Both the position numbers and the translations under genes were made by a program. Source: an uncultured Candidatus Thioglobus sp. (lineage in GTDB: Bacteria > Pseudomonadota > Gammaproteobacteria > PS1 > Pseudothioglobaceae). From it: DNA of 64,000 nucleotides. Location of the stretch: positions 62,001 through 126,000 of the forward strand of contig CAJJCX010000001.1 of NCBI GenBank assembly GCA_905182815.1, read 5' to 3'. The notes beneath the pieces are model-generated. The model worked only from the letters and a program-made list of their open reading frames with translations, was not told the origin of the DNA and searched no databases. Positions 3,564 through 27,250 of this stretch are shown here, piece after piece. Every line of letters starts with the position of its first letter. The stretch's first letter is position 1.

Positions 3564-4871
3564 ATGACTCAGCATCAAAACTTTTTAAACTCTCTTATTC
3601 AGCGTATCCGTATGGGGCGTTCAAATAAGAAAGTATCCAGTCCTGAAAGTATCATCACGCTTTGCAATCAGTTAGTAAGTAAAAATGGAGAGGCAACATT
3701 ATTTTCTCTTGCAAAAATAATTTTGGAAGATTTTAATACTCTTTCAGAAGAGCAAAAAAAGTCATTTTTTTTACAGTTTCTTGATCAGTTTGGCGTCGAT
3801 CGGCCTACTCTCAAAAAAGCTCTCATTGAATTAAATATTGATGATGAAGGCCAGCTCAGGAAACTTCATCAATTAATTGAACCTAAGAGTCATGAGCTTC
3901 TTAGAAGGTTAAATCAAGTCCCAAATGGAACATCAGTGCTTTTAAAGATGAGAGAGTCATTGTTAGAGTGCATTAAAGCTTCCCCAGAGCTTAAATCACT
4001 TGATTCTGATTTTGTTCATTTATTTAAGTCTTGGTTTAATAGGGGGTTTTTAAGACTTGAGCGCATTGATTGGTCGACAAGTGCTAGAGTGTTGGAAAAA
4101 ATCATGCAGTACGAAGCTGTCCATGATATTTCAGATTGGGAGGATTTACAAAATAGGGTGGCTGCAGATGACAGAAGGTTATATGCTTTTTTTCACCCAG
4201 CACTTCCAGATGAGCCTCTTATTTTTATTGAGGTTGCATTGATGGACGATACGCCAAATTCAATTATGCCAATACTTGATACAAGCGTTAAACCAATTGA
4301 TCCTTTTAGCGCCACAACAGCAGTTTTTTATTCTATCTCTAATTGCCAGATGGGACTAAAGAGCGTTTCTTTCGGGAGTTTTTTGATTAAGCAAGTAGTC
4401 ACTGAAATTGAGAAGGAATTCAAACAAATCAAGCATTTTGTTACTCTCTCGCCTGTTCCTGGGCTGAAGAAATGGTCTAACAAAATTAACCTATTAGAAG
4501 ATAAAGATTTGCCTGAAAATATAATTAATGATATTAGCGAATGTTGTAAAGATAATAAGCCAAATCCTTTAGTATTGAATCGACTAACTTATTATTATTT
4601 AACTCAAGTTAAACGTAAAAATGGTCAAGCTATTAATCCAGTTGCTCATTTTCATCTTGGTAATGGCGCATCTCTTTATAAAATTCATACAGATGCAAAT
4701 GTTAATCAAAGTGCTCTAGATGATTCTTGGGGAGTGATGGTTAATTACTTATATGACCTAGAGTCAGTTGCTAAGAACCATGAAGACTATGCAAATCAAG
4801 AGCCGGTTGCAGTGTCACCAAAACTTACAAAATCTATTCAAAATAATAAGAAAAAAATCTTAGCCTATTGA
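3564..4871 (+). CDS. Malonyl-CoA decarboxylase
   Basis: A 435-residue cytoplasmic enzyme that converts malonyl-CoA to acetyl-CoA and CO2. The N-terminal half is the helical MCD domain; the C-terminal half is the GNAT-like catalytic domain. Family landmarks are seen: the GFLRLERIDW segment, the AVFYSISNCQMGL segment, the LSPVPG loop with the likely catalytic Ser296, and the FHLGNGA loop with the likely catalytic His364 (assigned by analogy to the Ser/His pair of the human enzyme). Its stop overlaps the convergent symporter stop by 7 bases. The role here could be malonate use or control of malonyl-CoA; no malonate:CoA ligase is adjacent. Confidence 0.9.
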   Translation: MTQHQNFLNSLIQRIRMGRSNKKVSSPESIITLCNQLVSKNGEATLFSLAKIILEDFNTLSEEQKKSFFLQFLDQFGVDRPTLKKALIELNIDDEGQLRKLHQLIEPKSHELLRRLNQVPNGTSVLLKMRESLLECIKASPELKSLDSDFVHLFKSWFNRGFLRLERIDWSTSARVLEKIMQYEAVHDISDWEDLQNRVAADDRRLYAFFHPALPDEPLIFIEVALMDDTPNSIMPILDTSVKPIDPFSATTAVFYSISNCQMGLKSVSFGSFLIKQVVTEIEKEFKQIKHFVTLSPVPGLKKWSNKINLLEDKDLPENIINDISECCKDNKPNPLVLNRLTYYYLTQVKRKNGQAINPVAHFHLGNGASLYKIHTDANVNQSALDDSWGVMVNYLYDLESVAKNHEDYANQEPVAVSPKLTKSIQNNKKKILAY

Positions 4872-6793
4872 TTTATTGATTCAATTTCTTTTTCAGGCTC
4901 AGTAGACATTCTTAATTTATTAGCTAAAAACCAAATTAATCCTACACCTAGTGCCCACCAAATAATTTGCCATGCCCAAATTGATGGCATTCCAAGCATC
5001 CAAGAATCATAACCAGCATTAGGTTTGCCAAAGGTGAAGTTTCCAAATATTGATCCTGGGCCAATAGCAAAAAACATCCATACCATTAATAAAAGCCCTC
5101 CAACTGGCTTAGACCAGCGATCATTAGAAGCTGTTACAGAGTGTTTTTGGAAAAATGAGTGAAATGTATCCCTATGTTGTTTGTCAGGATCTTGACTGGT
5201 CATTAAAGAGATAATTAAGCAGATTGAAATATTAAAAAACATACCCCATACAGCTGAATGAATTGTCCAGGGCCACACTCCCCAAGGTAGTCGTCCGCCA
5301 GTTATTTTCTGTCCTAATGTTTCAGTGAAGATAACTACAATAATTCCAATAATTACACCTGCAATTGCTGCATTTTTTGTAATCCATGGAAACCATGTGA
5401 CACCTAATAATGATGGCCAAAGTTGGAATGAGCAAGCAATTGCTAGACTTCCAAGAATGAGAGTGGCTTCCATCGAAAATGAAGCTAATAGCATTCCACA
5501 AAAGAACACTAACGCTGTAAGGAGTTTTGCAGCTTTAATTTGAGTTTTATAATCCGCATCTTTATTAAAATAATGAACATAAATATCTCGAGATAAAATA
5601 TTTCCAGTAGTAGACATAAATGCAGCTGCAGTGACTTGTAATGCTGCTATAGCACAGATAGCAAGGAAGCCAACCATCCATGGTGAAGTGCTTCCTACAA
5701 GTTTAATATAATGCATTACCAGTTCAGTATATTGCGCCTTAGATAGTTCTGGCAAATGCTGTGCAATTGCAAATCCTGCTTGATTAACCACACTATTTGC
5801 TCCTAGTAGATTTGCGCTTACTCCTTGTAGAGTGGAAAATAAAAACATGATAATACCAACACATGCTGCCGCGCCCCATATCTGATGAATTGAAAAGCCT
5901 TTGGTTGATTTACTGGTAAACCCAAGCATTGTGAATGTTGGTGAGGATTGAATTCCCATAACTGACATCATAAATGTAAGAGTCATAATTGCAGTCCATG
6001 GTCCTCCCTTTGGGGTTTCAATTCCTATGCCATCTGTAAATTGAATTACACCAGGAATTGCGAAGTATCCTGGGAAGTTTCCACCACCCATGCCTTTAGT
6101 TTTTCCAAGATGACTGGTTATATTTTTTGCAATGTTTGCTAAGCCTTGGTTTAATGAATCAAAGCCTCCAGCAAGATCAAGAGCAAATAAGCCCAAAATA
6201 ATCATTCCAAGGAAAAATAGTATAGTCTGCACTACTGAAATTTTTGCTATTGCTTGCATTCCACCCATGATTGAATATAAAAGAACAAATCCAGATAATG
6301 ACCACATAGCTACATTTCGTGAAAAAATACCATTAGTTAATTCACTTATTAGGAATCCTGAGGATCCAAAGAGTAATGCAGCAAATGGAATACCAAATAA
6401 AAGTGCAATACAAACTGAAATAACTCTTAGGGTGTCGTCTTTAAAGTATGCTGAAAGCATTTCACCAGATGTAGTAAATCTAAAACGCCTTCCAAGCATC
6501 CATTGTCTTTTGAGAAGAACAACTCCAGAAATTGCAACAGCTATGGCGAAAAATGAAGTATTTGCAAACTGAAATCCATCTCTAAAAATCAGTCCAGGAT
6601 GGGCAATAAAAGTCCATCCTGCAAAGGATATTCCTGTTGCTGCTATAGCAAATACCCATGGCGATAAACTTCGACCAGATAGGAAGTAGTCATCTGCAGA
6701 TGCTATTTGCTTTGAAGCTCGAACTCCCCAAAAAAAACAGTAAGACCAATAAAGGACTAAAAATATAAATATCCATGTTATTGCGCTAGTCAT
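4865..6793 (-). CDS. Sodium:solute symporter (SSS family)
   Basis: A 642-residue inner-membrane protein with about 13-14 hydrophobic helices. The N-terminal DDYFLSGRSLSPW motif and the following AATGISFAGWTF segment are classic for the SSS (SLC5-like) family, which couples sodium influx to uptake of small solutes such as acetate, proline or pantothenate. The substrate cannot be read from the sequence. It lies 48 bases downstream of the ABC permease gene on the same strand, so it may be the last gene of the transporter operon running from 12.6 kb, or it may serve malonate/acetate uptake with the convergent decarboxylase gene. Confidence 0.85.
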   Translation of the reverse strand: MTSAITWIFIFLVLYWSYCFFWGVRASKQIASADDYFLSGRSLSPWVFAIAATGISFAGWTFIAHPGLIFRDGFQFANTSFFAIAVAISGVVLLKRQWMLGRRFRFTTSGEMLSAYFKDDTLRVISVCIALLFGIPFAALLFGSSGFLISELTNGIFSRNVAMWSLSGFVLLYSIMGGMQAIAKISVVQTILFFLGMIILGLFALDLAGGFDSLNQGLANIAKNITSHLGKTKGMGGGNFPGYFAIPGVIQFTDGIGIETPKGGPWTAIMTLTFMMSVMGIQSSPTFTMLGFTSKSTKGFSIHQIWGAAACVGIIMFLFSTLQGVSANLLGANSVVNQAGFAIAQHLPELSKAQYTELVMHYIKLVGSTSPWMVGFLAICAIAALQVTAAAFMSTTGNILSRDIYVHYFNKDADYKTQIKAAKLLTALVFFCGMLLASFSMEATLILGSLAIACSFQLWPSLLGVTWFPWITKNAAIAGVIIGIIVVIFTETLGQKITGGRLPWGVWPWTIHSAVWGMFFNISICLIISLMTSQDPDKQHRDTFHSFFQKHSVTASNDRWSKPVGGLLLMVWMFFAIGPGSIFGNFTFGKPNAGYDSWMLGMPSIWAWQIIWWALGVGLIWFLANKLRMSTEPEKEIESINQ

Positions 6794-6841: not shown

Positions 6842-8257
6842 TTAAATTTGTGTTCTTATATGAGGTGATCTGGCATATAAAGCTACCATAGGGAGGATTA
6901 ACAGGCCAAAAACAAATTGTTGACCTTCGTAGCTTAATCCAATTCCTACTAAAAATGACGATAGAACTTGTAAAACAAGAACACCAATAACTGTAAATCC
7001 ATATCCTCCTTTTCCTCCAAGAAGTGAAGTACCTCCAACTACAACAGCAGCTATAGTTTGAAAAAGATAAGGACCACCAACGCCAACAAACCCACCACCA
7101 CTCCATCCTAAAAGTAAAATACCAGTTAGTGCAGAAACAAACCCCCCTATTGCAAATGCTCCTATCCAGTAAGCCCTCTCTGATATTGATAATCTTGCTG
7201 CAGCTGTCCGGTTTCCACCTACTGCATATAGGTTTCTTCCCCAAGTTGTATTTGATAGTGCGATAATCATAAGGATTGATGAAACAACCCAGATTACAAC
7301 AACAGGCGGGATGCTAATGCCAATAAAAGTTCCATTTGTTGCAGCTATATTAGACAACCACTTTGGCACAACACCAAAAACGCTTCCTCCAAAATCTGAA
7401 CCAATAGTTGTTAAGGCTTGAACGGCGCCAGTAACTACAAATCCAACACCCAGAGTTAAGATAAGTGCTTGACCTTGTATACGAAAACTTAATAAGCCAT
7501 TAACTATTCCAACACCTAATCCCATTAATAAAACAGCAACTATGCAGATCCATGGAGGAATTCCTAGCGTGATTAAATACATTAAGCCAATATTTGCAGC
7601 TCCAATTACAAAGCTGACTGATAAGTCTAATCCGCCTAGTAATACTACAAGAGTTTGTCCAATACATGCAAGCCCAAGGAATGATGCAAAAAGAAGCATT
7701 GATTTCAGATTCAAAGTTGAGATAAAGCCATCTACAATTAATGAACCCATAATAAAAAGTCCAATTAATACTGCTAATCCCATAAGCGCACTTTTATTAT
7801 TTTTCGCAACTGAGTTGGTGATGATTAATATTAAGAGAGTTAGAAAAAATACCACCAATGAAAGTATATTTTGCCATTGAAGAAAATCATCCATAGCAAA
7901 GGCAAGTCCAACAAATGCAATAATCATTGCTAATATGCCAATAATGGCACCCTTGTTACTCTTGATAAGGAAACTAAAGTAGCTTTCAGTAGACTCTTTA
8001 TCTTGGATTTCTATATTTTCTACTAATTGTAGATCTTCCTCTTCAAGGCCGTCAATGTATGTCCATCTTACTGAAAGGTGATGCCAGCCCCATAAGATTG
8101 AACCAAAGATTGCAACTGTATAAAGCATAACAAGTTGTGAGGGAGTGTTATCAATAAAACCTAAAACAGCACTGATAACTGAAACTATTAAAGCAACAAT
8201 AAAGCCCAGCCATTTATAAAATGAAAAGGCAGCTTTTCCCATTCTATTAATGCGCAT
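6842..8257 (-). CDS. Rbs/Xyl-type ABC importer permease with N-terminal extension
   Basis: A 471-residue membrane protein. The C-terminal ~310 residues are a BPD_transp_2 (RbsC/XylH-like) permease: the LLGGLDLSVSF motif, a GIVNGLLSF segment, and the VVVGGTSLLGGKGG loop that contacts the ATPase. The first ~160 residues add extra hydrophobic helices and an acidic cytoplasmic loop (EEEDLQLVENIE) that normal 320-340-residue permeases lack. It lies 34 bases downstream of the second, larger permease gene and 48 bases upstream of the symporter, so the order on this strand is ATPase, large permease, this permease, symporter. It probably forms a heterodimeric channel with the large permease. Confidence 0.85.
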   Translation of the reverse strand: MRINRMGKAAFSFYKWLGFIVALIVSVISAVLGFIDNTPSQLVMLYTVAIFGSILWGWHHLSVRWTYIDGLEEEDLQLVENIEIQDKESTESYFSFLIKSNKGAIIGILAMIIAFVGLAFAMDDFLQWQNILSLVVFFLTLLILIITNSVAKNNKSALMGLAVLIGLFIMGSLIVDGFISTLNLKSMLLFASFLGLACIGQTLVVLLGGLDLSVSFVIGAANIGLMYLITLGIPPWICIVAVLLMGLGVGIVNGLLSFRIQGQALILTLGVGFVVTGAVQALTTIGSDFGGSVFGVVPKWLSNIAATNGTFIGISIPPVVVIWVVSSILMIIALSNTTWGRNLYAVGGNRTAAARLSISERAYWIGAFAIGGFVSALTGILLLGWSGGGFVGVGGPYLFQTIAAVVVGGTSLLGGKGGYGFTVIGVLVLQVLSSFLVGIGLSYEGQQFVFGLLILPMVALYARSPHIRTQI

Positions 8258-8291: not shown

Positions 8292-10445
8292 TTATCCTTC
8301 CCATTTGCTTATTGCATCATCTTTATGATCGCCAATAATGTATGTGCTTATTATGTGCATTACATTTGGAGCAGAAATAATTGTGATTCCAATAATGACA
8401 ATGAGCTTCCATATTGGCACACCTATTGCATAAAATAAACTGCCCCAAGCTAGAACAGCAAAAGCAGCTATATACCAATATTTCCAAAAACTATTAAAAC
8501 TAGTTTCTCCCATAGCAATGCGTAAAAATACTTGTAATAAAACAATAATAATGGCAATGTAGGCAATTTCAGTAATCAGTGCCATTCCACTGGCATCAAC
8601 ATTCATCCTTATTGGTGCCGTATATTCGATAAATTTGGTCGGTAAACTTTCTACTCCAGTTGGAATAATTGGCATTGAATAGTTTGTTAATACTCCCATA
8701 TTTGGGTCAACTGAAACCACACTATTGCCTATAAAGAAGTACATAACAATTAAGAAAATAATAGATATTGCGCCAATAAAAATATTGTTGATATTTTTTA
8801 TTTTTGTATGAACTAAAGGTATGGTAATTGTGAAGAGAAGTGCTGAGACCATTAGTATTGCAAAAACTTCACCTGAGAAACTACTTGTTAAATATCCCTT
8901 ATCTGCATCTTGAAAAAATACAGCTCCAATTGCAATAACTGGAACAATAGCGATGCACATTATCATTGCTAAACGCTTGATACTAGTTTTTATTCCTGGA
9001 AGCATTGTCAGAATTATTAGTGATGACAATAGCACTACACCTACTAGACCGATTAATAGATATGTTGTCTTACTTAATGCATTAATAGAGAGGAATGATG
9101 AAGAGCTCGAGATTTCCTCCATGCTAAATATCATTATTGAATAATCAATCATAGCTGGTGAGAAAACTACTTCTGAAGTAGAATCAGGATTAAATATTAG
9201 ACCAAAAGCAGTAATTATTACAACAATCATAAGTCCAATCATTGGGCCGCTTATATGTTTAAAAGCAACTTTGATAATATAGGCAGTCAATGCCACCCCA
9301 ATAATTATAAGAAACATAATTGTTCCTGCTGACATAGTTTCCTGCTCAACAGCAGCTACAAATGCCTTATATCTTTTTACTCCAAATGATTTGTCCATCG
9401 ATACGCTTACCATTACCCCTAAGGAAACTATTCCCATTACTAAAAACACTAGGGATGGCGATAGTCCTCGAGCACGTTTTTGAAGAAATGGAATCGCAAT
9501 ACTAATTAATAATGAAACAACCAGCATAAGTCCATATGAGAAATCGGTAACGAAACTCTGCATTTTTCCAAAGTTAAAAGTTGAAAGTGCAAAGGTAATT
9601 AAAAATATATTTAGTGAACCTAGAAGGGCGCCAAATGCACTTCCTCGACCACCTGCTAAATTTGCTCCACCCAGGACAAGTGCAGTAACTGCCATTAGTG
9701 TGTAAGTTGTTCCCTGACTTGGATCACCAGAGCTAATTAGAGATGTAAATGTAATCGCAGCAAGTCCTGCATAAATACCGCCTATAACATGAGCGCCAAT
9801 ACGAACCATGTTTATATTAACTCCGCTTGTGTAAGTTGCTCGCTCATCAGAACCCATCATTTTTAAATTACCCCAGAAGGCTGTTTGAGCAAGCAAGTAC
9901 CATCCTGCTGTTGCAACTATTAATATTACTAAAACGGGAGAAAAAATAGTAGTGCCAGCTCCCCAGCTATACATCCAATCAGGCGCTAAGCCAGATGGTC
10001 GAGGCATAATTATGAGATTCAATCCAACAAGCGAGAGGTAGCCACTTAATGACACAATAATTGGCTGCACTCGAACAAATACAATTATTAAAGCCATTAG
10101 AACTTGATAAGCAATACCCACACCAATGGCGTATAAAAATATTGCAATTGGTGATTCAATTAAACCTAGCCCGATTAGCTGAATCATGCCAACATTGATA
10201 AATCCAATTAATGGCCCAATTGATAAATCAACTCCTGCTCTTCCAGCCATAACTATTACTGTTAATGCATAGGTTGCAAGTATTAGTGGAGCCACCACAA
10301 TTATTAAACCGCCAAATCCAGTACTTGAAACCATATATGGGCCTCTAATAACTGCAAATATAAGTAATAGGAAGAATATGACTATAGGAACTATAAGATA
10401 TGTACTAGCCCCAGAATTTGATTCTTGTTTTTTGATTAATTCCAT
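8292..10445 (-). CDS. Double-length ABC importer permease (RbsC-like N-half, unknown membrane C-half)
   Basis: A 717-residue membrane protein, about twice the usual length. Residues ~1-335 are an RbsC/XylH-like permease: AGRAGVDLSIGP, the GSDERATYTSGVN loop and ALVLGGANLAGGRG. Residues ~340-717 contain some eight to nine more hydrophobic helices separated by short loops, including a Ser-rich EEISSSSSF loop and a presumably exterior loop around NMGVLTNYSMPIIPTG; I do not recognise this half. The gene sits 42 bases downstream of the ATPase gene and 34 bases upstream of the other permease, indicating one operon. The frame is intact throughout, so the fusion is not a sequencing artefact of obvious kind. 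Confidence 0.8.
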   Translation of the reverse strand: MELIKKQESNSGASTYLIVPIVIFFLLLIFAVIRGPYMVSSTGFGGLIIVVAPLILATYALTVIVMAGRAGVDLSIGPLIGFINVGMIQLIGLGLIESPIAIFLYAIGVGIAYQVLMALIIVFVRVQPIIVSLSGYLSLVGLNLIIMPRPSGLAPDWMYSWGAGTTIFSPVLVILIVATAGWYLLAQTAFWGNLKMMGSDERATYTSGVNINMVRIGAHVIGGIYAGLAAITFTSLISSGDPSQGTTYTLMAVTALVLGGANLAGGRGSAFGALLGSLNIFLITFALSTFNFGKMQSFVTDFSYGLMLVVSLLISIAIPFLQKRARGLSPSLVFLVMGIVSLGVMVSVSMDKSFGVKRYKAFVAAVEQETMSAGTIMFLIIIGVALTAYIIKVAFKHISGPMIGLMIVVIITAFGLIFNPDSTSEVVFSPAMIDYSIMIFSMEEISSSSSFLSINALSKTTYLLIGLVGVVLLSSLIILTMLPGIKTSIKRLAMIMCIAIVPVIAIGAVFFQDADKGYLTSSFSGEVFAILMVSALLFTITIPLVHTKIKNINNIFIGAISIIFLIVMYFFIGNSVVSVDPNMGVLTNYSMPIIPTGVESLPTKFIEYTAPIRMNVDASGMALITEIAYIAIIIVLLQVFLRIAMGETSFNSFWKYWYIAAFAVLAWGSLFYAIGVPIWKLIVIIGITIISAPNVMHIISTYIIGDHKDDAISKWEG

Positions 10446-10487: not shown

Positions 10488-12641
10488 CTATTCTTTAGAG
10501 AATAATTTTTCAAATTTTTCTAAATCTTCCTTACTATATTCCTGAGTATTTGACTTAACACTCTTATGATCTATATTATTAGAGGAGGTGATTTTTTGAC
10601 TACTTAAGCCTCTATCTAGCTCATTTTTATTTTCATTACTATCATCTTCAATTTCAAATTTTTTGAATAGCTCTTCGTCGGCTGCTGAGTAACCATCTAC
10701 TTTATTTGCCTGACCCAAAGTAATTTTTTGGTTAGGGTTTTTTTTGAATTTCATTAACTTTTCAAATTGATTTGAATCATCTTTAGAATATTCAAAAGAC
10801 TCGGTTAATTCCTTAGCTGTTTTCTTTTCAACTTTTTTGCCATCATTATTTTGATTTTCAGAAGAATTGATTATTGAATTAAAATTTTCTTCATCAGAAG
10901 GTGAGAAATCCTGCTTTGAAGATTTAGTTGAGGCTTCTGTTTTGATCTCATTTTTGAAATATTTACTTACGTTATATTCACTCATTTCATTCTCCATTTT
11001 TGTGTTTTCAGGATATTTTGAGTTCACCAACTCTTTATGCTCTATATCAGAGTTATCTTGATTTTGAATATGTCCAAACATTGATTCAAGAATTCCATCA
11101 GCATTAATTTTTTGATCTAAAAATGTTTCAAAAATGCTGCCATTGCGAAATACAATTACACGCGAACAAAACCCTATGAACTCTTCAAGTTCACTTGACA
11201 TGTAAATTACTGAATTTCCTTCATCCGCAAATTCTCTTAGTTGTTTGTAAAGATCTCTTTTAGTTTGTAAATCTATTCCACGAGCAGGATCTAATAAAAC
11301 CAAAGTCTTGGGATGGGTGGAAAAAGCACGTCCTAGCATTACTTTTTGTTGATTACCGCCACTTAAAGATGTAATCAAATTTTCTTTGGCGCCTGCTTTA
11401 ATAGCTAATCTCTCTACTTCCCAATCATAAATGTCATTTATTCCCCCCCATTCAATAAGGCGAACGCCGGGTATATTGGTATTTTTGTCGTACATAGAAA
11501 TTGCTAAATTTTCAACAATACTTAGATTTGGTAAAATTCCTTCTCTTTTTCGATCACCTGAAACAAATGCAATTCCAAATTTTTTTGCATCTGCAAGAGT
11601 GTTAATCGAAGAAAAATCAACACCATGGTTTGTGCTGACTTCAGCTACTCCTTCTGCAGCTGGTGCAATACCAGCTAATATTCGAACAAAGTCATCTTGA
11701 CCATGGCCATCTAGGCCAGTGATTCCAACTATTTCGCCTTTATTTAATTCAAAATTTGAAGAATCACTTGTTGGCCAAACCCTCATATTTTGAGTTCTGA
11801 GTGCTACTTGTGAGTGAGATGATTTGTGAGCATCTTGTTTAGTTGAGTCTTTGCTTTGATCTTTTCCTGTCATCAGTTGTAAAAGATTTTTTTCAGTAAT
11901 TTGACTTTTTTCTAAAACACCAACATCTTTCCCATCTCTCATAACTGTGCAACGATCACTGATTCTTACTAACTCTGCAATTCTATGAGTTACTATTATT
12001 ATTGCTGTCCCCTTATCACGTAGTTCTCTCATCTTATTAAAAAGACGCTCAGTTGAGTCGAAATCTAATGCAGCTGATGATTCATCTAAAATTAGTAAAT
12101 CTGGCTCACTTAGTAATCCTCTAGCGATGGTAATCCAGGCTTTAGTACTTAGTGGAAGATTTCCAGCTGGCATTAAGGGGTCGATATCTTCATCAGCTAA
12201 TTCACTTAATAAAATTCTAGCTTTATCTTGTTTATCTTTATCCGACATTGATTTTGAGAAAAAACCATCAATACCAATAAATAAGTTATCAACTATCGAT
12301 GCTTCATCTGCTACAAGAACCTCTTGAAATACCATTGAAACGCCTAAATCGCGAGATTCCTTTGGTGTGGATGGGTGATGGCCATTAATTGACACTTTCC
12401 CTGAATCAATTGGCAAGACACCCGCGAGCACCTTAGCTAATGTACTTTTCCCACAGCCATTTCCACCAATAATTGCATGGATTTCACCAAAATATCCAGT
12501 AAAGGACACATTATCAAGGGCTTTAGTTACCCCAAATGATTTGCTTACGTTTTTAACATGAAGCTCACCCGGAAATTTGGTTAGTATTTCTGGTAAATCT
12601 GAAGGATCATCTTCTACTGTCTTTTGCACTTGTTCGGCCAA
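10488..12641 (-). CDS. Duplicated-NBD sugar-type ABC ATPase with long acidic repeat tail
   Basis: A 717-residue cytoplasmic ATPase of the RbsA/XylG type. First domain: Walker A GGNGCGKSTL, a degenerate signature LPLSTKAWITIARG, Walker B LLILDESSAALD. Second domain: the Walker A position reads GLDGHGQDDF and lacks the GK[ST] core, while LSGGNQQKV and LVLLDPARGID remain. Normal family members end near residue 500; here a ~200-residue hydrophilic tail follows with four copies of [YF]-S-x-x-D-x-x-x-F-x-x-[LIF] at residues 579, 618, 651 and 702. It is the first gene of the minus-strand operon with two permeases. The tail may bind another cluster protein; that is inference. Confidence 0.85.
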   Translation of the reverse strand: MAEQVQKTVEDDPSDLPEILTKFPGELHVKNVSKSFGVTKALDNVSFTGYFGEIHAIIGGNGCGKSTLAKVLAGVLPIDSGKVSINGHHPSTPKESRDLGVSMVFQEVLVADEASIVDNLFIGIDGFFSKSMSDKDKQDKARILLSELADEDIDPLMPAGNLPLSTKAWITIARGLLSEPDLLILDESSAALDFDSTERLFNKMRELRDKGTAIIIVTHRIAELVRISDRCTVMRDGKDVGVLEKSQITEKNLLQLMTGKDQSKDSTKQDAHKSSHSQVALRTQNMRVWPTSDSSNFELNKGEIVGITGLDGHGQDDFVRILAGIAPAAEGVAEVSTNHGVDFSSINTLADAKKFGIAFVSGDRKREGILPNLSIVENLAISMYDKNTNIPGVRLIEWGGINDIYDWEVERLAIKAGAKENLITSLSGGNQQKVMLGRAFSTHPKTLVLLDPARGIDLQTKRDLYKQLREFADEGNSVIYMSSELEEFIGFCSRVIVFRNGSIFETFLDQKINADGILESMFGHIQNQDNSDIEHKELVNSKYPENTKMENEMSEYNVSKYFKNEIKTEASTKSSKQDFSPSDEENFNSIINSSENQNNDGKKVEKKTAKELTESFEYSKDDSNQFEKLMKFKKNPNQKITLGQANKVDGYSAADEELFKKFEIEDDSNENKNELDRGLSSQKITSSNNIDHKSVKSNTQEYSKEDLEKFEKLFSKE

Positions 12642-18949: not shown

Positions 18950-19642
18950 CTAGGTAATTAACTCCGAAACTTTTTGGATATTGGAATATTTAGCAACTGC
19001 TTCAGTTCTATTTTTAACATTGAGTTTTTTAAATATTGCTGATACGTGCATTTTAATTGTTGGAATAGTAAGACCCAATTCAGTTGCAATAGACTGGTTT
19101 GAGTTACCAACCTTTATAAGATTAAAGACTTCTTCTTGTCTCTTTGATAGGATGCTGGACTTTTTAATAATATTTGATACTGGTTGGGAGACATCATTCT
19201 TGATATCAATTCTTGATTGCAAGACATGCGGAGGAATGTAAACACCTCCAGCCAAGATAAGCTTAATAGCGCTAATAGTAATTTCTGGTAGGGAGGTTTT
19301 TGGAATGTAACCTGATGCTCCAGAAGAGATGGCCATATGAATGGAATCAAAATCTTCTTTAACAGAAACAATAACTATTGGGACGCCAGGATGCAAATTG
19401 ATAATATTGAGGATGCTTTTTTCTCCATCCATTCCAGGCATCATGAGATCTAGAAGCAATAAATCAATAGAAGACTTTTCTGAGAGAATTTTTATTGTTT
19501 CATCAAAACTATTAGTTTGAAATATATCTGAATTTGGTACAGCCATTTTTACAACTAATTCTAGCCCACCTCTGACTAATGCATGGTCATCCGCTATAAC
19601 GATTTGATGACGAATTGAATTATCTTGAACTTGATTTGGCAT
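18950..19642 (-). CDS. LuxR/NarL-type response regulator
   Basis: A 230-residue DNA-binding regulator. The N-terminal receiver has acidic residues Asp18/Asp19, phospho-acceptor Asp65 in LLLLDLMMPGMDG, a later Ser in SSGASGYIPK and the conserved Lys. The C-terminal LuxR helix-turn-helix reads LSKRQEEVFNLI and SIATELGLTIPTIKMHVSAI. It heads a minus-strand operon with the TorT-like and ATPase genes and is the likely output of the hybrid kinase at 14.0 kb. A perfect 8-base inverted repeat lies 37 bases upstream and may be its own operator. Typical TorR proteins are OmpR-type, so this is not an orthologous Tor system. Confidence 0.92.
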   Translation of the reverse strand: MPNQVQDNSIRHQIVIADDHALVRGGLELVVKMAVPNSDIFQTNSFDETIKILSEKSSIDLLLLDLMMPGMDGEKSILNIINLHPGVPIVIVSVKEDFDSIHMAISSGASGYIPKTSLPEITISAIKLILAGGVYIPPHVLQSRIDIKNDVSQPVSNIIKKSSILSKRQEEVFNLIKVGNSNQSIATELGLTIPTIKMHVSAIFKKLNVKNRTEAVAKYSNIQKVSELIT

Positions 19643-19678
19643 ATTTATTTATTCTCTTAGTAATTGAATTTTAAAGCT

Positions 19679-19699: not shown

Positions 19700-19798
19700 T
19701 TGTACATTATTTTACTGGTTAATAAGAATGCAGGGCTGCATACTTTAATCCCATATACATACTAATGTAATGTAATAAATAAAATATACATACTTTTG

Positions 19799-19826
19799 TT
19801 GACTAATATATACAATATGCTATACT
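19799..19826 (+). promoter_or_regulatory. Sigma-70 promoter for the periplasmic binding protein gene
   Basis: TTGACT (19799-19804), 16-base spacer, TATACT (19821-19826). This is close to consensus and would start transcription about 19833, leaving a ~108-base leader before the ATG at 19941. Just upstream, ATATACATACT occurs twice (19753-19763 and 19784-19794, 31 bases apart), possible activator or repressor sites. The strength fits an abundant binding protein. Confidence 0.6.
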
Positions 19827-19940
19827 CACATATACTTTAGACTATGTAAATTTGCTTTAAAAGCGTACCTAGCTTATAAATCAAAGTTTTTTAAAGTACA
19901 CAAAACAAGTAATGATACTTGTCAAAAAAAGGAGATAAAA

Positions 19941-21113
19941 ATGCAAAAATTTATAAAATTTACTTTAGCATGTTTTTTATCATTAGGATTTTCAACAATG
20001 ACTCTTGCTGGTCTAGATGAAATTCCAAAAAGTATTACTGATTCAGTGTATAACCCAGATCTAATGGATTCAATGCAGCCATTAGGTGAGAGTGCTTTTA
20101 GGGAATGGAAGAGTGACCGCTCTCCACCTTGGACAGTAGGTTATGCAAGTACTTATGCTGGAAATACTTGGCGTAAAGGCGCAATGGACCGGTTATTGAA
20201 TGAGATCAAGCCAAAATGGCAAGAGCTCGGACTACTTAATGATATTGTTGTTACACAGTCAAATCTAAAAGATGCTTTACAAATCCAGCAGATTAGACAG
20301 CTAGTTGATCAGGGCGTAGATGCAATTATTATTTGTTGCTCGAACCCGACAGCTCTTAATCAAGCTATTCAGTATGCATTTGATAGAGGCGTTCCCGTCT
20401 TTTCATTTACTGGATATACAACATCGCCACTTTCAGTCAGTTCATCAGTTAACTATCATCAGGCAGGATTTGATGTTGGTACATGGATGGCCGAAGAGAT
20501 TGGTGGAAAGGGTAATGTTCTTGTAGTAGAGGGTATTCCTGGCTATTCTGCTTCTGATTCTCAGAACCGTGGAGTTTTGGATGGTTTGTCTCAATATCCT
20601 GGAATTAAGGTTACTGGACAGATTGCCCATATGTGGACATCACAAGTTGGTCAAGCAGAAACACAAAAATGGTTAGCAACTCATCCTGGTCAGCTTGACG
20701 GTATGGCAGTTCAGTCTTCTGGTGAAACAGGAGTATTAGCTGCACTTCAGCAATCAGGTCGTGAGATGGTTCCATTATCAATTGGTGGTGAGTTAGGTGC
20801 TTTATGTTACTGGCGTAATAATCCAGATTACATAAGTGCGGCAATTCAAACATGGCCTCCGGGTGATGATGTTGAGCTTGGCTGGAACATCATGATGCGC
20901 ACATTGCAAGGTCAAGGTCCTAAGATTCAATCAATTTTAGTACCACCTCGCAAAATTACTTACTCTGATGTTGAGGCAATGATGGGTACTGATTGTGATA
21001 GAGGTTCTACTGGTTGGTACAATCCAGGGATAGATATTTGGGGTGGTAAAGACTATCTTGATAATTTCTTCCTGAGACCTGCGGATCCAGAGGCATACGA
21101 TCCAAATTCATAA
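19941..21113 (+). CDS. RbsB-like periplasmic substrate-binding protein
   Basis: A 390-residue periplasmic binding protein of the sugar-type (peripla_BP_4) family. A clear signal peptide (LACFLSLGFSTMTLAG) is followed by VGYASTYAGNTWRKGAMDRL, a VDAIIICCSNPTALNQAI segment and NVLVVEGIPGYSASD. A strong SD (AAGGAG) sits 6-7 bases before the ATG and a near-consensus promoter lies upstream. It probably feeds the transporter encoded at 6.8-12.6 kb, which lacks its own binding protein. A stable hairpin follows the stop, which would separate its high expression from the rhodopsin gene. Ligand unknown; the DMFase-like gene downstream hints at an amide. Confidence 0.88.
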   Translation: MQKFIKFTLACFLSLGFSTMTLAGLDEIPKSITDSVYNPDLMDSMQPLGESAFREWKSDRSPPWTVGYASTYAGNTWRKGAMDRLLNEIKPKWQELGLLNDIVVTQSNLKDALQIQQIRQLVDQGVDAIIICCSNPTALNQAIQYAFDRGVPVFSFTGYTTSPLSVSSSVNYHQAGFDVGTWMAEEIGGKGNVLVVEGIPGYSASDSQNRGVLDGLSQYPGIKVTGQIAHMWTSQVGQAETQKWLATHPGQLDGMAVQSSGETGVLAALQQSGREMVPLSIGGELGALCYWRNNPDYISAAIQTWPPGDDVELGWNIMMRTLQGQGPKIQSILVPPRKITYSDVEAMMGTDCDRGSTGWYNPGIDIWGGKDYLDNFFLRPADPEAYDPNS

Positions 21114-21131
21114 GTAAATAAACTTCATAAA

Positions 21132-21153
21132 GCCCAGAAACTTTTTTCTGGGC
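21132..21153 (+). terminator. Hairpin after the binding protein gene
   Basis: GCCCAGAAA-CTTT-TTTCTGGGC, a perfect 9-base stem. It is followed by CTTATGGATTTTAAG rather than a continuous T-run, so it may be a partial terminator or an mRNA-stabilising structure that keeps binding-protein message more abundant than the downstream rhodopsin-flotillin message. Confidence 0.6.
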
Positions 21154-21262
21154 CTTATGGATTTTAAGCTCGACATTTAGTTTTTAGAGTTATTAAAAAT
21201 ATTTTTTAAAATGAATTAAAGATTGAAGTAATAAAAATAGAATTTAAAACCAAGGATATTTT

Positions 21263-21970
21263 ATGAACAGCACATTATTACCAACAGACATTGTAGGAGG
21301 TACTTTTTGGCTCCTATCTATGGCAATGTTTGGTGCATCTATTTTCTTTCTTCTTGAAAGAACAAAGGTTGCTACTAAGTGGCATACAACTATGACATTA
21401 CTAGGTGTGGTAATGCTGGTTTCAGCAGTCTTCTACCACTATATTAAAACAATGTGGGTGGACACTGGTTCAGCACCAATTATTCTACGATATTTAGACT
21501 GGATACTCACACATACGATGCAAATTGTTTTGTTTTATGTCATCTTGTCTGCAGTTACAAAAGTTTCATCAGCTTTGTTTTGGAGATTATTAATTGGATC
21601 ATTAGTAATGGTGATCGGCGAATTTCTAGGGGCAGCTGGTTATATGAGCGCTACGTTAGGATTTATTATAGGAGTTGTGGGTTGGCTTTATATTCTCGGT
21701 GAACTGTATATGGGAGAAGCAGGACGTGCAAATTTAGAGAGTGGTAATGAAGCCACACATATGGCATTTAATGGCCTCAGATTAATTTTAACTATTGGAT
21801 GGGCAATTTACCCACTTGGTTATTTTATAAACAATCTTGGGGGCGGTATTGATGTGAATAGCTTAAATATTGTTTATAACTTAAGTGATTTTTTAAATAA
21901 AGTAATTTTTGGATTCGTAATTTATAAAGCTGCAATGAATGATACTCAGCTAGTAAATGAAAGCAATTAA
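21263..21970 (+). CDS. Divergent proteorhodopsin-like protein (flotillin-associated type)
   Basis: A 235-residue seven-helix membrane protein of the microbial rhodopsin family. The retinal-binding lysine is present (Lys213 in DFLNKVIFG). Helix C reads RYLDWILTHTMQIVLFY: Asp79 and Thr83 match the proteorhodopsin counterion and Thr101, but the proton-donor position (Glu108) is Leu90, giving D-T-L. Gln87 occupies the spectral-tuning position (Gln105 in blue forms), Thr85 replaces the usual proline, and His59 matches His75. There is no obvious signal peptide. The flotillin gene follows 43 bases later. This matches the flotillin-associated rhodopsins I recall from Pelagibacterales and Pseudothioglobus. 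Proton pumping is doubtful; sensory or structural roles are possible. Confidence 0.92.
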   Translation: MNSTLLPTDIVGGTFWLLSMAMFGASIFFLLERTKVATKWHTTMTLLGVVMLVSAVFYHYIKTMWVDTGSAPIILRYLDWILTHTMQIVLFYVILSAVTKVSSALFWRLLIGSLVMVIGEFLGAAGYMSATLGFIIGVVGWLYILGELYMGEAGRANLESGNEATHMAFNGLRLILTIGWAIYPLGYFINNLGGGIDVNSLNIVYNLSDFLNKVIFGFVIYKAAMNDTQLVNESN

Positions 21971-22013
21971 CTATGAAAAATAATACATACAAATTTTATA
22001 AGGAGAAATTATT

Positions 22014-24008
22014 ATGACTGGTGCAGATATTATTGCAGCCATTATTCTTACGGCATTAGCAATTGCAATTTTTGTATATTTGCTGCATTGGCTTTATCGC
22101 AGATCATCCAAAGAGGTTTCTTTTGTGAGAACTGGACTTAGAGGTGAAAAGGTTATATTAAGTGGGGGAGCATTTGTATTACCAATAATTCACAATATAA
22201 CTTCTGTTGGAATGCGAACATTGCGTATAGAAGTTAAGCGTGGTGGTGATAAATCATTTATTACTAAAAATAGAATGCGAGTTGAAATAATTGCAGAATT
22301 CTATGTACGCGTAACTCCATCAAAGGAGGCAGTATCAATTGCAGCGGGTACTTTAGGTAAGCGAACAATGGAGCCTGAAAGTTTAAGAGAATTAGTCCAA
22401 GGTAGATTTGTAGACGCACTAGGTATTGTTGCAGCACAAATGACAATGGAAGAAATACAGGAGAAGAGGGGCGAATATATAAAGGAAGTAAAGGTTATTG
22501 TTGCTGAATCTTTAAGTGCGACAGGACTAGAGCTTGAAGCCGTTTCTCTAACTAGTTTAGATCAAGCTGGACTAGAGGTATTTAACCCATCTAACGCGTT
22601 TGACGCGGAAGGTCTTACTCAGCTTACAGAGCAAATTGAAGCAGGAAAGAAAAAGCGTAATGATATTGAGCAAGATACAACAATAAGAATTAGAGCAAAA
22701 AATCTGGAAGCCGAGCAGAAAGCTCTGGAAATTGATCAACAAAGAGAGTTTTCAAGGTTATCACAGGAGCGTGAAATTGCCAAACAACGAGATAGAGAGC
22801 GTACTGATATGGCTATTGAAACCTCAACACAGCAGCGCTTAGCTGAAGAATCCAGAATCCAGTCTGAAGAGGATATTGAAAAAGCACGTATTCAACAACA
22901 AGATACAATTGAAGTTGAGCGTTCATTGAGGGAGCATGAGCTAACACTTCAGATTGAAGAGCGAAAAAGATTAAGAAACGAAATTGAAAGACAAACTGAA
23001 ACTGACATTAAGCAAAAAAATCTTGAGGCTGAAATTAGAGCATTAGATATTCAAAAAGAAAATGAGTTTGCAAGACTTCAACAGGAAGAAGATATTGCTT
23101 CTCAAAGGGCAAAACAGAAAACTGAAGTTCTTAAGGTTGAGTCTGAGCAATATATAGAATCTGAACAGGCCCAAATAAAAGCAAACGAAGAAGTTAAAAA
23201 GATGGAAATAGATCAAAAGAGATCTCTTGAAATCTCTCGAATTAATAATGATCAATTGTCTCAAGCTTCTGAAATACAAAAGAGAAAAAATCTTGAGATT
23301 GAAGAGAAAGATCGTGAGCTTGAAATTATAGCCAAAACTGTAGAAGTATTAAAGGCAGTAGAAAATAAAGAACATATTAGGGCTCAAGTTGTTGTCGCAG
23401 AGGAGCAGGTTCAATCAGCACAGGAGGTTGAAGTTGCAGAGCGACAAAAGAAGCTTCAGATAATTAATGCTGAAAAAGAGGGTGAGAGTGAAGCAATACA
23501 AATTACCACCCTTGCTAGAGCTGAAAAAGAAGCAGCACAGGAGCAAGAGCAAACTGATAAATATGCTTCCCTTGCAAGTAAGCTTCGATATGAAGTAGAT
23601 GCAGCAGGAAATTTGATGCTAAATGAGGCTGAAAATGCTCGAAGTGATGAAAGTCGTCAAAGCGATCTAAGAATGGAGATTGCTAAGAATCTTGACTCAA
23701 TTATTCGTGAAGCTGTTAAGCCAATGGAAAATATTGATGACATAAAAATTTATGAACTTAATGGAATGCCTGGCTTCAATTCAAATAGTTCCAATGGAGA
23801 TTTTGTTGGACCAGTAAATGGAGGCGGAAATTTTTCTGAAAATGTAGTAAATTCCGCGTTACGTTATCGCGCACAGGCTCCTTTTGTTGACAATCTTCTT
23901 GATGAAATTGGAATGTCATCTAAAGAGATAAGCAATATTAAAAACATTCTTGGGGATTATAAGAAGGATGAAAAAAAAGGCGACGATATAGAAGGCGATA
24001 AAGCCTAA
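22014..24008 (+). CDS. Flotillin/YqiK-like SPFH protein with duplicated coiled coil
   Basis: A 664-residue membrane-anchored protein. One N-terminal helix (residues ~5-25) is followed by a band-7/SPFH domain (~30-205) and a very long Glu/Arg-rich coiled coil. Two ~105-residue units, starting near residues 212 and 317, share KNLEAE..AL.I and EF.RLQ.E..IA.QR, evidence of an internal duplication. The C-terminal part carries a DDIKIYELNGMPG segment typical of flotillins. Flotillins scaffold membrane microdomains. It has a strong SD (AAGGAG) and lies between rhodopsin and the DMFase-like gene. The duplication would lengthen the rod that projects from the membrane; its partners are unknown. Confidence 0.92.
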   Translation: MTGADIIAAIILTALAIAIFVYLLHWLYRRSSKEVSFVRTGLRGEKVILSGGAFVLPIIHNITSVGMRTLRIEVKRGGDKSFITKNRMRVEIIAEFYVRVTPSKEAVSIAAGTLGKRTMEPESLRELVQGRFVDALGIVAAQMTMEEIQEKRGEYIKEVKVIVAESLSATGLELEAVSLTSLDQAGLEVFNPSNAFDAEGLTQLTEQIEAGKKKRNDIEQDTTIRIRAKNLEAEQKALEIDQQREFSRLSQEREIAKQRDRERTDMAIETSTQQRLAEESRIQSEEDIEKARIQQQDTIEVERSLREHELTLQIEERKRLRNEIERQTETDIKQKNLEAEIRALDIQKENEFARLQQEEDIASQRAKQKTEVLKVESEQYIESEQAQIKANEEVKKMEIDQKRSLEISRINNDQLSQASEIQKRKNLEIEEKDRELEIIAKTVEVLKAVENKEHIRAQVVVAEEQVQSAQEVEVAERQKKLQIINAEKEGESEAIQITTLARAEKEAAQEQEQTDKYASLASKLRYEVDAAGNLMLNEAENARSDESRQSDLRMEIAKNLDSIIREAVKPMENIDDIKIYELNGMPGFNSNSSNGDFVGPVNGGGNFSENVVNSALRYRAQAPFVDNLLDEIGMSSKEISNIKNILGDYKKDEKKGDDIEGDKA

Positions 24009-24048: not shown

Positions 24049-26427
24049 ATGTTGAGAATTACTGGTTATAGCGACAAATACTCTGTTTGTCCTGGAGATA
24101 ACATACAATTTTATATTAACTCTGAAGATAGTGAAGTTTACGAAACACAAATAGTCCGATTAATACATGGTGATACTAACCCTGACGGTCCTGGATACAA
24201 AGAAGAAGAAATTCAGGCTGAATGTAATAAAAATTATCCAGGAAAAAATCAAAAAATACATGGTGGCTCTTATGTGATCGTCCCTCAAGATGAGCGTCTT
24301 AATTTAGAAAGCTTTACACTTCAGTGTTATATATTTCCAACAACACCTGTTGTTGGTCTTGGTACTCCACAAAAAGGCCGCCAGGGCGTTTTAACTAAAT
24401 GGGTTGAAGAAACTAAAAGTGGCTATGGGTTGTTTATAGACGAGCATAATTGTTTGTCTGTCGAAATAGGCGATGGCAGTGGCCAGATTATGAAGCTTTC
24501 AAGTGATAAAAAACTTTTAAGGAAGGTTTGGTATCTTGCAGCAGTTAGTTATGATGCGCGCACAGGTAAAGTTACGTTATTTCAAGAACCTGTTGTAACA
24601 TCAACTAATGGCGGATTAGGCCAAGGCTTATTAAATCCAGCAGAAGAAACTACTGCTGTGGTGGAGTCTATTAATAGTATAAAGCCAGGTATCAATGATG
24701 CCCCTTTTCTAATGGCAGCAAGTACAAAATATCAGAGGTCAGGAAGACATATTTCTGGAGGACATTTTAAAGAGGTGTTGGAGCCTATAGAATTGCCAGA
24801 GCAAGTTCATACATATAACGGAAAAATAGATCGCCCAAGACTCTCAAGGAGAGCTTTAACTAGGTCTGAAATAGAATCTTTGGCACGTGGTTACCAGGGT
24901 TGTAAGGCAGAATTACGTAACGACGTTGTTGGAGCTTGGGATTTTCATGCGAATATAACTACAAACATCGCCTCAACTTGCATAATTGATACGTCGCCTT
25001 CTATGTTAAATGGTGTCATTATTAATATGCCTGTTAGGGCTATGACAGGCTTTAACTGGACTGGAGATGAAATTGTTTATCATCATAAGCCTGAAGAGTA
25101 TGGTGCAATTCATTTTCATGACGATGATATAGATGACGCACGTTGGGAAGTTGATTTTGAACTTAAAATTCCTGATGGCTTAAAAAGTGGTATTTATGCT
25201 GCTCGCTTAAGGATTGGTGGTGAAGACTCTCCAGAAACAGAAGATTATATTCCTTTTGTTGTTCGTCCTCCAAAAGGAAAGACTACTTCAAAATTGGCTT
25301 TTATTTTGCCTACAAATTCATACTTAGCATATTCAAATGATAATCTTTGTACCAACTGTGTTGTGGCTGAGTTATTAGCTGGAAAGGTTCCTGTAATGAC
25401 TGCAGCTGATCTATATTTAAATGAGCATAGAGAATATGGACTTTCTACTTATTCACTTCATTCAGATGGAAGTGGCGTTTGCTACTCATCAAGACTTAGA
25501 CCAATTTTAAATATGCGCCCTAAATATCGTCATTGGCTCTCTCCGTCTTTATGGCAGCTTAATGGTGATCTTCATCTTGTTGACTGGCTTGAAGAAAAAA
25601 ACTTTGATTTTGATATTCATACTGATGAAGACTTGCATCGAGAAGGAGTTGGGTTATTAAATAAATATCAAACTGTACTTACTGGAAGTCATCCAGAATA
25701 TACTTCAGAAAAAATGTTTTCTGCTTATGAAAAATATCAACAAGATGGTGGTCGATGGATTTATTTAGGTGCAAATGGTTTCTACTGGTGTAGTGAGTAT
25801 CATCCTGATAATTCTAATATTATTGAAGTTCGTAAAGGAGAGGCTGGAACTAGAGCTTGGACAGCAAATCCTGGGGAATATAATAATGCTTTTGATGGAA
25901 AATATGGAGGCATGTGGCGCGCTCGAGGAAGAATTCCAAGTAAGCTTTGTGGACTCACTTTTACGGCTTATGGTTTTGATGTTTCATCCTACTATGTTAG
26001 AGATAAGGATAGTGAAAGACCAGAGACAGCTTGGATAATGGAAGGGGTAGGGAATGGTGAAAAAATCGGTGATTTTGGGCTTGTTGGCGGTGGGGCTGCA
26101 GGTGTAGAGTTGGATCGGTATGACATTGAATTCGGAACTCCACATGATTCATATTTATTAGCGCATTCAGTTGGACATACCAATTTAATGTTGCAAGTTA
26201 ATGAAGAGATTCACTTTTCTGTTCGTGGGTATCACGGAAGTGGTACTGAGAATCCTATGGTTCGAGCTGATATGGTATTTTATAAAACACCAAATGATGG
26301 TGGAGTTTTTGCTCCAGGATCTTTGTCGTGGTGTGGAAGTCTTTCGCATAATAATTACAATAATAATGTTTCTCGTATTACAGAAAATGCAATAAGAGGA
26401 TTTTTAAAAGATGGACCTTTGCCTTAA
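24049..26427 (+). CDS. N,N-dimethylformamidase-like large subunit
   Basis: A 792-residue cytoplasmic enzyme resembling DMFase large subunit, which hydrolyses dimethylformamide to dimethylamine and formate. An N-terminal domain is followed by a LamG/concanavalin-like region (~75-280) and the C-terminal amidohydrolase domain. The reported two-Tyr-one-Glu iron site of the Paracoccus enzyme has plausible counterparts: Tyr425 or Tyr428 (TNSYLAYSND), Tyr468 (LSTYSLH) and Glu550 with His548 (TGSHPEYTS); the spacings agree within one to two residues. No signal peptide. Two small-subunit-like genes follow within the same operon. The real substrate may be another N-substituted amide. Confidence 0.85.
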   Translation: MLRITGYSDKYSVCPGDNIQFYINSEDSEVYETQIVRLIHGDTNPDGPGYKEEEIQAECNKNYPGKNQKIHGGSYVIVPQDERLNLESFTLQCYIFPTTPVVGLGTPQKGRQGVLTKWVEETKSGYGLFIDEHNCLSVEIGDGSGQIMKLSSDKKLLRKVWYLAAVSYDARTGKVTLFQEPVVTSTNGGLGQGLLNPAEETTAVVESINSIKPGINDAPFLMAASTKYQRSGRHISGGHFKEVLEPIELPEQVHTYNGKIDRPRLSRRALTRSEIESLARGYQGCKAELRNDVVGAWDFHANITTNIASTCIIDTSPSMLNGVIINMPVRAMTGFNWTGDEIVYHHKPEEYGAIHFHDDDIDDARWEVDFELKIPDGLKSGIYAARLRIGGEDSPETEDYIPFVVRPPKGKTTSKLAFILPTNSYLAYSNDNLCTNCVVAELLAGKVPVMTAADLYLNEHREYGLSTYSLHSDGSGVCYSSRLRPILNMRPKYRHWLSPSLWQLNGDLHLVDWLEEKNFDFDIHTDEDLHREGVGLLNKYQTVLTGSHPEYTSEKMFSAYEKYQQDGGRWIYLGANGFYWCSEYHPDNSNIIEVRKGEAGTRAWTANPGEYNNAFDGKYGGMWRARGRIPSKLCGLTFTAYGFDVSSYYVRDKDSERPETAWIMEGVGNGEKIGDFGLVGGGAAGVELDRYDIEFGTPHDSYLLAHSVGHTNLMLQVNEEIHFSVRGYHGSGTENPMVRADMVFYKTPNDGGVFAPGSLSWCGSLSHNNYNNNVSRITENAIRGFLKDGPLP

Positions 26428-26453: not shown

Positions 26454-26822
26454 ATGATTACTAATAAACACCCTAATATGATGGATCCACCTGTTGGTAA
26501 GTCAGTTGTTGGAACAAGCACTGAGCCTCTTAATGAATTAGAGAAAAGAGTAATTAGCCCTCTAGATGAGGATAAAGTTAATGATTTGTCAGAATATTTA
26601 TTTACACTTAATAATAGACACATTGGGCCAATTGCAGGTGCTTATGTTGCAGTTTGCATTGTTGAAGGAAAAGAGTGGTGTGTTGGCCAGTTGAATGCAG
26701 ATCGAGCAAAGCCATTAATACTTTTTGAAGATAAGATCTTTAACACCCCTGAAGGCGCCCAAATTGAGGCAGGACGATTAAAAGAGGAGCGAGGAGAGTC
26801 AGTGCCTTGTCGCAACCATTAA
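26454..26822 (+). CDS. DMFase small-subunit-like protein, copy 1
   Basis: A 122-residue soluble protein 26 bases after the large subunit with a good SD (AAGGAG). The core GPIAGAYVAVCI resembles APMAGKYVTVCI in the next gene, and the two align through a following beta-rich segment, so they are tandem paralogues. The DMFase small subunit is about 130 residues, so size and position fit. The N-terminal ~40 residues look disordered. I assign it mainly from context. Confidence 0.65.
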   Translation: MITNKHPNMMDPPVGKSVVGTSTEPLNELEKRVISPLDEDKVNDLSEYLFTLNNRHIGPIAGAYVAVCIVEGKEWCVGQLNADRAKPLILFEDKIFNTPEGAQIEAGRLKEERGESVPCRNH

Positions 26823-26842: not shown

Positions 26843-27250
26843 ATGACAAATAAAGAAAAAGGTGTAATTGCAAACGAATCTTATGCTGAGACAGATGATT
26901 ATATTACGAGGACTTATGTAATGCCTCTTTTGTTTGATGATGAATCACGCAGAAAATTGATTTCAGAGCACAGAAATAGTCCTGTTGGAACTGCTCCATC
27001 AAATGGAAGGGCCGCGATCGAACATAGTCATGATCTTAGAAAAGTTCTTGATAAATTACGAAGAGCGCCAATGGCTGGCAAATATGTTACTGTTTGTATT
27101 CGTATGTTTGAAAAATATAAGATAGGAATTGTTTCAGGAATTCGTGGTGTTCCAGTTGATATACAAGAAGAAATATATTCTTCAGAAGAAGCCTGTGAGC
27201 ATGCAATTTTTTTAAAAAGAATTGCTAATTTAATGAATCACTACGGTTAG
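26843..27250 (+). CDS. DMFase small-subunit-like protein, copy 2
   Basis: A 135-residue soluble protein 20 bases after copy 1. It has an N-terminal helical charged part and a C-terminal APMAGKYVTVCI core followed by EEIYSSEEACEHAIFLKRI, parallel to the core of copy 1. Its length is closer to the known ~130-residue small subunit. It closes the rhodopsin-flotillin-DMFase operon; a structured intergenic region follows. Whether both copies join one complex or serve as alternatives cannot be told. Confidence 0.65.
   Translation: MTNKEKGVIANESYAETDDYITRTYVMPLLFDDESRRKLISEHRNSPVGTAPSNGRAAIEHSHDLRKVLDKLRRAPMAGKYVTVCIRMFEKYKIGIVSGIRGVPVDIQEEIYSSEEACEHAIFLKRIANLMNHYG

Follow-up and report, generated by a model that had tools for sequence, protein, structure and literature searches.

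A flotillin-associated rhodopsin of Candidatus Thioglobus and its probably plugged retinal pocket

The rhodopsin-like gene considered here raises the question of whether its product still works with light, or serves the membrane in some other way. It lies in a 64,000-nucleotide stretch of a contig from an uncultured Candidatus Thioglobus species, hereafter the window. In 2023 flotillin-associated rhodopsins (FArhodopsins, FARs) were described as second rhodopsins adjoining a flotillin gene, with a DTT type in Pelagibacterales, a DNI type in HIMB59 and a DTL type in Pseudothioglobus; the main text of that study confines marine FARs to three streamlined taxa (Haro-Moreno 2023, PMC10308929). The family is plentiful in dimly lit ocean waters.

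The gene and its family

The open reading frame has exactly the boundaries given in the original prediction. It is intact over 235 amino acids, and its antisense reading is interrupted by stops throughout. The gene and its nearest features are:

19941..21113, + strand: substrate-binding protein of the periplasmic sugar type, a conserved FAR-cluster member
21126..21159, no strand: 15-bp hairpin between the binding-protein gene and the rhodopsin gene
21263..21970, + strand: FArhodopsin gene, 235 aa (D-T-L, Q87, H84, T85, E120, F57, K213)
22014..24008, + strand: flotillin gene, 664 aa (SPFH/Band_7 and Flot domains, N-terminal hydrophobic segment)
24049..26427, + strand: N,N-dimethylformamidase large-subunit-like protein (DMFA2_C), conserved in FAR clusters
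26454..26822, + strand: small conserved FAR-cluster protein without a Pfam family
26843..27250, + strand: small conserved FAR-cluster protein without a Pfam family, which ends the tight run

The protein matched the Pfam family PF01036 (E=5e-32) with a score of 111.6 bits, where 24.6 would have sufficed, so the rhodopsin match is beyond chance. On this match, and on a predicted model that matches proteorhodopsins, it is a type-1 rhodopsin of the proteorhodopsin family. Its motif is D79-T83-L90 in place of DTE, and its short N-terminus has no leader peptide, residue 8 aligning with residue 27 of the blue proteorhodopsin BPR (4kly).

The best solved match is the flotillin-associated rhodopsin PsFAR (PDB 9r21, E=2e-133), which is ~85% identical over 230 residues and shares H84, Q87, K213, E120 and Phe57; the AlphaFold model of the window FAR has the same fold (Z 32.7). 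PsFAR comes from another species and differs in having Ser85 where the window protein has Thr85, and Met90 where it has Leu90. The published Pseudothioglobus FArhodopsins resemble the window protein in the D-T-L motif, the flotillin and the short N-terminus, and their cluster likewise contains a dimethylformamidase, a symporter, a LuxR regulator and a hybrid kinase (Haro-Moreno 2023, PMC10308929). They accompany a separate proteorhodopsin; the one in the genome of the window is split by a frameshift in this assembly.

In a maximum-likelihood tree of 62 rhodopsins, the window FAR falls inside a 22-row FAR clade (support 100/99) and outside the 40 D-T-E proteorhodopsins, among them those of its own genus. 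PsFAR groups with the Thioglobus relative L008. The tree was midpoint-rooted, and the direction of change depends on that root. The original prediction had pointed to FArhodopsins and had proposed this phylogeny, naming a place within the pump clade as evidence to the contrary. The protein does not place there, and the tree, the 9r21 match and the published description (PMC10308929) carry the link down to the Pseudothioglobus D-T-L subtype. The gene is almost certainly a FArhodopsin of that type, and it is an ordinary member of a known, poorly understood family.

Orthologues with 84-88% identity are present in four other genomes of the genus. One orthologue (L009/L025) has a D-S-L motif through a change of Thr83 to Ser. 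A FAR 78% identical to that of the window, with Pro85 and His57 kept, was found in a gammaproteobacterial MAG of 5.4 Mb (L027, Chromatiales bacterium Ww634); a binning error is possible in that case. A search of plasmids for FARs returned distant rhodopsins only, at <=39% identity. Values of dN/dS for the FAR against its orthologues are about 0.03-0.06, equal to those of flotillin and of the genus's proteorhodopsins. From these values it is concluded that the protein is retained; it is kept by strong purifying selection.

The retinal pocket

Around D85, T89, T90, L93, D96 and K216 of bacteriorhodopsin (BR) the alignment has no gaps. His84 is the equivalent of BR Thr90, Gln87 of Leu93, Leu90 of Asp96 and Glu120 of Gly122. 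Thr90 and Gly122 of BR contact the retinal. Asp79, Thr83, His84, Thr85, Gln87, Leu90 and Lys213, on which the original prediction was built, are all present in the frame under this mapping. Glu120 and Phe57, which it overlooked, are no less important than Leu90, and Glu120 is the most telling residue of the window FAR.

Position 84 is Val in all 40 proteorhodopsins and His or Phe in all 16 marine FARs. Position 120 is Gly in all 40 proteorhodopsins and Glu or Gln in 13 of the 16 marine FARs; the other three, all D-N-I types, combine Gly120 with Trp137, at a position that is Gly in 40 of 40 proteorhodopsins and in the remaining marine FARs. Every marine FAR (16/16) has a bulky residue at 84, and either position 120 holds a filler or position 137 a Trp; the SAR11 DTT proteins additionally carry Trp116, Phe180 and His184. 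The proton-donor position is Glu in 40 of 40 proteorhodopsins and Leu, Thr, Ile or Val in FARs (Leu90 in the window), while position 87 is Leu or Gln in all 40 proteorhodopsins. Ala124 of the window FAR stands where proteorhodopsins carry Glu.

The summed pocket volume was not significantly above a random-position null (P=0.37 in the subgroup of the window FAR; the other subgroups gave 0.11 and 0.065), so the claim is limited to specific replacements and does not extend to a general increase in bulk. The case for a plugged pocket is drawn from these specific sites, from a deposited mutant and from the published failure of DTT proteins to bind retinal. The mutant, 9r23, is the H84V/E120G double mutant of PsFAR, for which the depositors chose precisely the two plug sites; DTT-T FARs expressed in E. 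coli gave neither pigment nor pH change (literature). As far as the sequence can tell, the pocket sites of the window FAR are probably plugged and light harvesting is unlikely. The original prediction, which doubted efficient pumping and allowed for a failure to bind retinal, agrees with the DTT results and with the plugged pocket.

Among the D-N-I FARs (L036-L060 compared with L031-L035), one lineage has changed from Glu120 and Gly137 to Gly120 and Trp137, with Gln87 changed to Leu. This is apparently a compensating swap; it is perfect in the full redundant set, yet represents a single evolutionary event. A view of H84 and E120 as a pair resembling the channelrhodopsin 'DC gate' was dropped, since E120 aligns with BR G122, not with D115.

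The chemistry around the Schiff base has been kept. All marine FARs of the set retain the lysine that would bind retinal, the two Asp counterions, Arg76, Tyr58 and Trp80, and K213, D79, D209, R76 and Y183 are invariant across all its FARs. Such retention would be unexpected if the protein had no contact with retinal at all, and the kept lysine site speaks most strongly against the view that every carbonyl or carboxylate ligand has been lost.

In the window's genus, Phe57 replaces the proteorhodopsin His75, and the His75-Asp97 acceptor pair is absent from the window FAR. Pro85 was lost in the same lineage; the nearest relatives outside the genus, L026 and L027, retain Pro85 and His57. The missing helix-C proline had been part of the original prediction. 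It is confirmed for the window FAR but does not carry beyond the genus, Pro85 being kept in two close relatives with His84 and in all other FARs.

The proton-pumping proteorhodopsins Med12 (4jq6), HOT75 BPR (4kly) and PsPR (9r22) share with the window FAR the fold (Z about 30), the Schiff-base lysine, the motif Asp and Thr and the counterion complex. In contrast, the window FAR is only ~40-49% identical to them, lacks the Glu donor, the Val and Gly pocket sites and His75, belongs to another clade, and has the flotillin neighbour that they do not. The closeness of the alignment is greatest between the light-driven pump 9r22 and the genus's own proteorhodopsins, which match well. The window model also superposes, at Z 30.6, on 8cnk, a retinal-free proteoopsin with decanoate, in which the proteorhodopsin fold is stable without retinal and carries a fatty acid on the lysine (PMC11322631). 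8cnk differs in being a normal pump that lacks its cofactor, and a fatty acid in the FAR would be an analogy only.

Flotillin, the uptake cluster and the supply of retinal

The flotillin gene starts 43 nt 3' of the FAR on the same strand, with an AAGGAG-type ribosome site, and its product matches PF15975 and PF01145; it is the sole flotillin match in the genome. The FAR, the flotillin, the dimethylformamidase-like protein and two small proteins form a tight + strand run with gaps of 43, 40, 26 and 20 nt. The hairpin ahead of the FAR is probably a terminator, in which case the run would start its own transcript. Promoter-like sites were no commoner than in shuffles, and no Rfam RNA element was found in 19000-28000. 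One SAR11 FAR is co-transcribed with flotillin (literature).

A flotillin gene lies 18-79 nt downstream in 62 of 62 FAR loci and in 0 of 32 proteorhodopsin loci with enough flank, both sets being partly redundant with many near-identical loci. The distance matrices of FAR and flotillin are correlated over 17 loci (r=0.96). From this adjacency and co-inheritance, and from these only, we infer that the FAR interacts with flotillin. One MAG (G203) carries both a D-N-I and a D-T-T FAR (L091, L092), each with its own flotillin, on different contigs; contamination is possible.

The remaining features of the FAR region lie upstream:

4865..6793, - strand: sodium:solute symporter, conserved in FAR clusters
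6842..8257, - strand: second ABC permease (BPD_transp_2)
8292..10445, - strand: ABC permease (BPD_transp_2), 717 aa, with ~400 aa of extra hydrophobic C-terminal part
10488..12641, - strand: CUT2-type ABC ATPase with a C-terminal extension of ~190 aa
14038..16098, + strand: listed part of the FAR region
18950..19642, - strand: LuxR-type response regulator of the Pseudothioglobus-type FAR cluster

The window contains the conserved FAR cluster (dimethylformamidase, symporter and translocator), together with the LuxR regulator and hybrid histidine kinase found in Pseudothioglobus, the kinase 5 kb from the FAR. Two permeases lie upstream of the FAR in SAR11, in the DNI types, in one gammaproteobacterial MAG and in an alphaproteobacterial order discussed below, and beyond them come the ATPase and, in most cases, the binding protein that belong to a single importer of the CUT2 ABC type. 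Counterparts of the window's long permease are found directly upstream in the FAR operon of other taxa, where the ATPase too sits directly in the operon; the second permease adjoins the FAR in SAR11, the DNI types and the large-genome alphaproteobacteria. Whereas the ABC genes of SAR11 and DNI-type loci stand directly ahead of the rhodopsin, the window's ATPase and permease genes are on the opposite strand, 8-15 kb upstream. The importer, with its oversized subunits (6842-12641, - strand in the window), is conserved alongside FAR and flotillin across classes. AlphaFold gave no interpretable model of the long permease 8292-10445 (pLDDT 39). Distance correlations between FAR and permease were set aside as unreliable: several loci are too short to include the orthologous permease, so that a paralogue becomes the best match. 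Next to the symporter are genes for a protein with a VWA domain and for malonyl-CoA decarboxylase (301-2664 and 3564-4871).

The retinal-forming enzyme Blh (PF15461) was found in none of 29 genomes of the window's genus, including two that are single contigs at 99%; a control run of the profile on genomes of SAR11 and related bacteria gave the expected matches. Neither an RPE65-like oxygenase nor a phytoene synthase was found in the ten genomes of the genus tested, and the controls matched. By its gene content the genus appears unable to make retinal by known routes, and since many of its genomes carry a proteorhodopsin, the retinal would be scavenged or made by an unknown route. Scavenging of retinal by a proteoopsin has been proposed (PMC11322631). 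The genome's own D-T-E proteorhodopsin, of the Leu (green) type (C1:353963-354692, also delimited as C1:353990-354680; L030:8964-9693), is split by a frameshift just past the helix-C motif, and its counterparts in relatives are intact; the frameshift is either an assembly error or a real loss.

Possible functions and an open-pocket lineage

The reading we favour, and hold to be moderately probable, is that of a non-pumping and probably retinal-blind opsin, which would act as a membrane partner of the co-transcribed flotillin beside an ABC and amide uptake cluster. The proteorhodopsin fold has lost its proton donor (Leu90) and, in the window's genus, the His75 and helix-C Pro elements as well. 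His84 on helix C and Glu120 on helix D would fill the room that the polyene chain and ring of retinal need. The Schiff-base lysine and counterions (K213, D79, D209, R76) survive. Retinal would most likely be unbound or very poorly held, and no pumping would follow. Made from one transcript, the FAR would join flotillin in a membrane microdomain, probably as a pentamer, where it would be a structural subunit that handles lipids or would carry some slimmer ligand on Lys213, and the pair would probably serve the neighbouring ABC, symporter and amidase uptake cluster. Both the biochemical role and the retinal blindness of this particular FAR are what we infer.

It is rather unlikely that scavenged retinal is bound in a distorted pocket, and that the protein is a slow photocycling blue-light sensor or a modulator of proteorhodopsin, and not a pump. 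The invariant K213, D79, D209, R76 and Y183 and the blue-type Gln87 would suit such a protein, the cluster encodes a LuxR regulator as well as a hybrid histidine kinase, and a genus with proteorhodopsins and no known retinal routes must scavenge, as has been proposed for a proteoopsin. However, His84 and Glu120 occupy retinal-contact sites (BR T90 and G122), the DTT relatives were uncoloured in E. coli, and retinal clashed in published AlphaFold models (Haro-Moreno 2023, PMC10308929). The neighbours of the FAR are a binding protein and flotillin, with no adjoining transducer gene, and the sensory option of the original prediction found no positive support.

A retinal-independent phospholipid scramblase, supporting bilayer remodelling in flotillin microdomains, is distinctly unlikely. 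It is suggested by analogy with actinorhodopsin, a pentameric opsin that scrambles lipids without retinal, as do opsins of all domains (PMC12805836). Actinorhodopsin thus offers a retinal-independent membrane role like that proposed for the FAR, but unlike the proposed FAR it also binds retinal (PMC12805836). The five chains in 9r21 fit such an activity, and the partnership with flotillin suggests membrane organization; yet the ordinary proteorhodopsins of the same cells could scramble too, which leaves the FAR-specific changes unexplained.

Very little probability attaches to a slowly cycling proton pump that binds retinal, in which Leu at the donor site would do no more than slow reprotonation. 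Loss of the carboxylate donor alone is no proof of a non-pump, as a SAR11 D-T-Q rhodopsin from 770 m pumped protons in E. coli (literature), and the window FAR has an intact acceptor Asp and counterion complex. Against it, the window FAR lies outside the pump clade, its pocket sites are replaced, Phe57 stands at the His75 position of green proteorhodopsin (GPR), the helix-C Pro is absent, and a separate D-T-E gene is present in the genome. A decaying pseudogene, which the loss of several conserved functional residues might suggest, was rejected as next to impossible on the substitution pattern and dN/dS (about 0.05), the frame being intact in all orthologues and the operon conserved.

For the favoured membrane partner of flotillin, an origin is suggested by a lineage with larger genomes. 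A flotillin-linked rhodopsin of the FAR clade was present in 3 of 385 alphaproteobacterial genomes, and in 6 of 11 within their order (~4.0-4.5 Mb). These FARs (L062-L064, L109-L111, L120-L122) have V84, A120, Pro85, K213, W141G and a D-T-V/I/T motif. In the order's genomes that carry it, the FAR is the only rhodopsin, with no proteorhodopsin, and the same ABC importer adjoins it. Blh was not found in the three genomes of the order tested; RPE65-like oxygenases and phytoene synthase family proteins are present.

We put forward, tentatively and at slightly less than an even chance, that the pairing of flotillin and rhodopsin preceded the loss of retinal. The pocket, open in the alphaproteobacterial order, would later have been plugged in the marine FARs, and the opsins would have been selected, as membrane partners of flotillin, for a filled cavity and a kept lysine site. 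Plugging would have occurred at the same places within the marine clade: His or Phe at 84 with Glu or Gln at 120, and Trp137 in the one lineage where position 120 reverted to Gly.

The new comparative points are this open-pocket FAR-flotillin lineage and a host genus without known carotenoid and retinal synthesis genes. Two to three positions can now be named at which all marine FARs of the set, and none of its proteorhodopsins, have the retinal cavity filled. In the large-genome lineage, flotillin-linked, open-pocketed and without a proteorhodopsin paralogue, the original function of FARs might be testable. If FARs are retinal-blind partners of flotillin, a textbook family of light-driven pumps would have become a raft component at least once.
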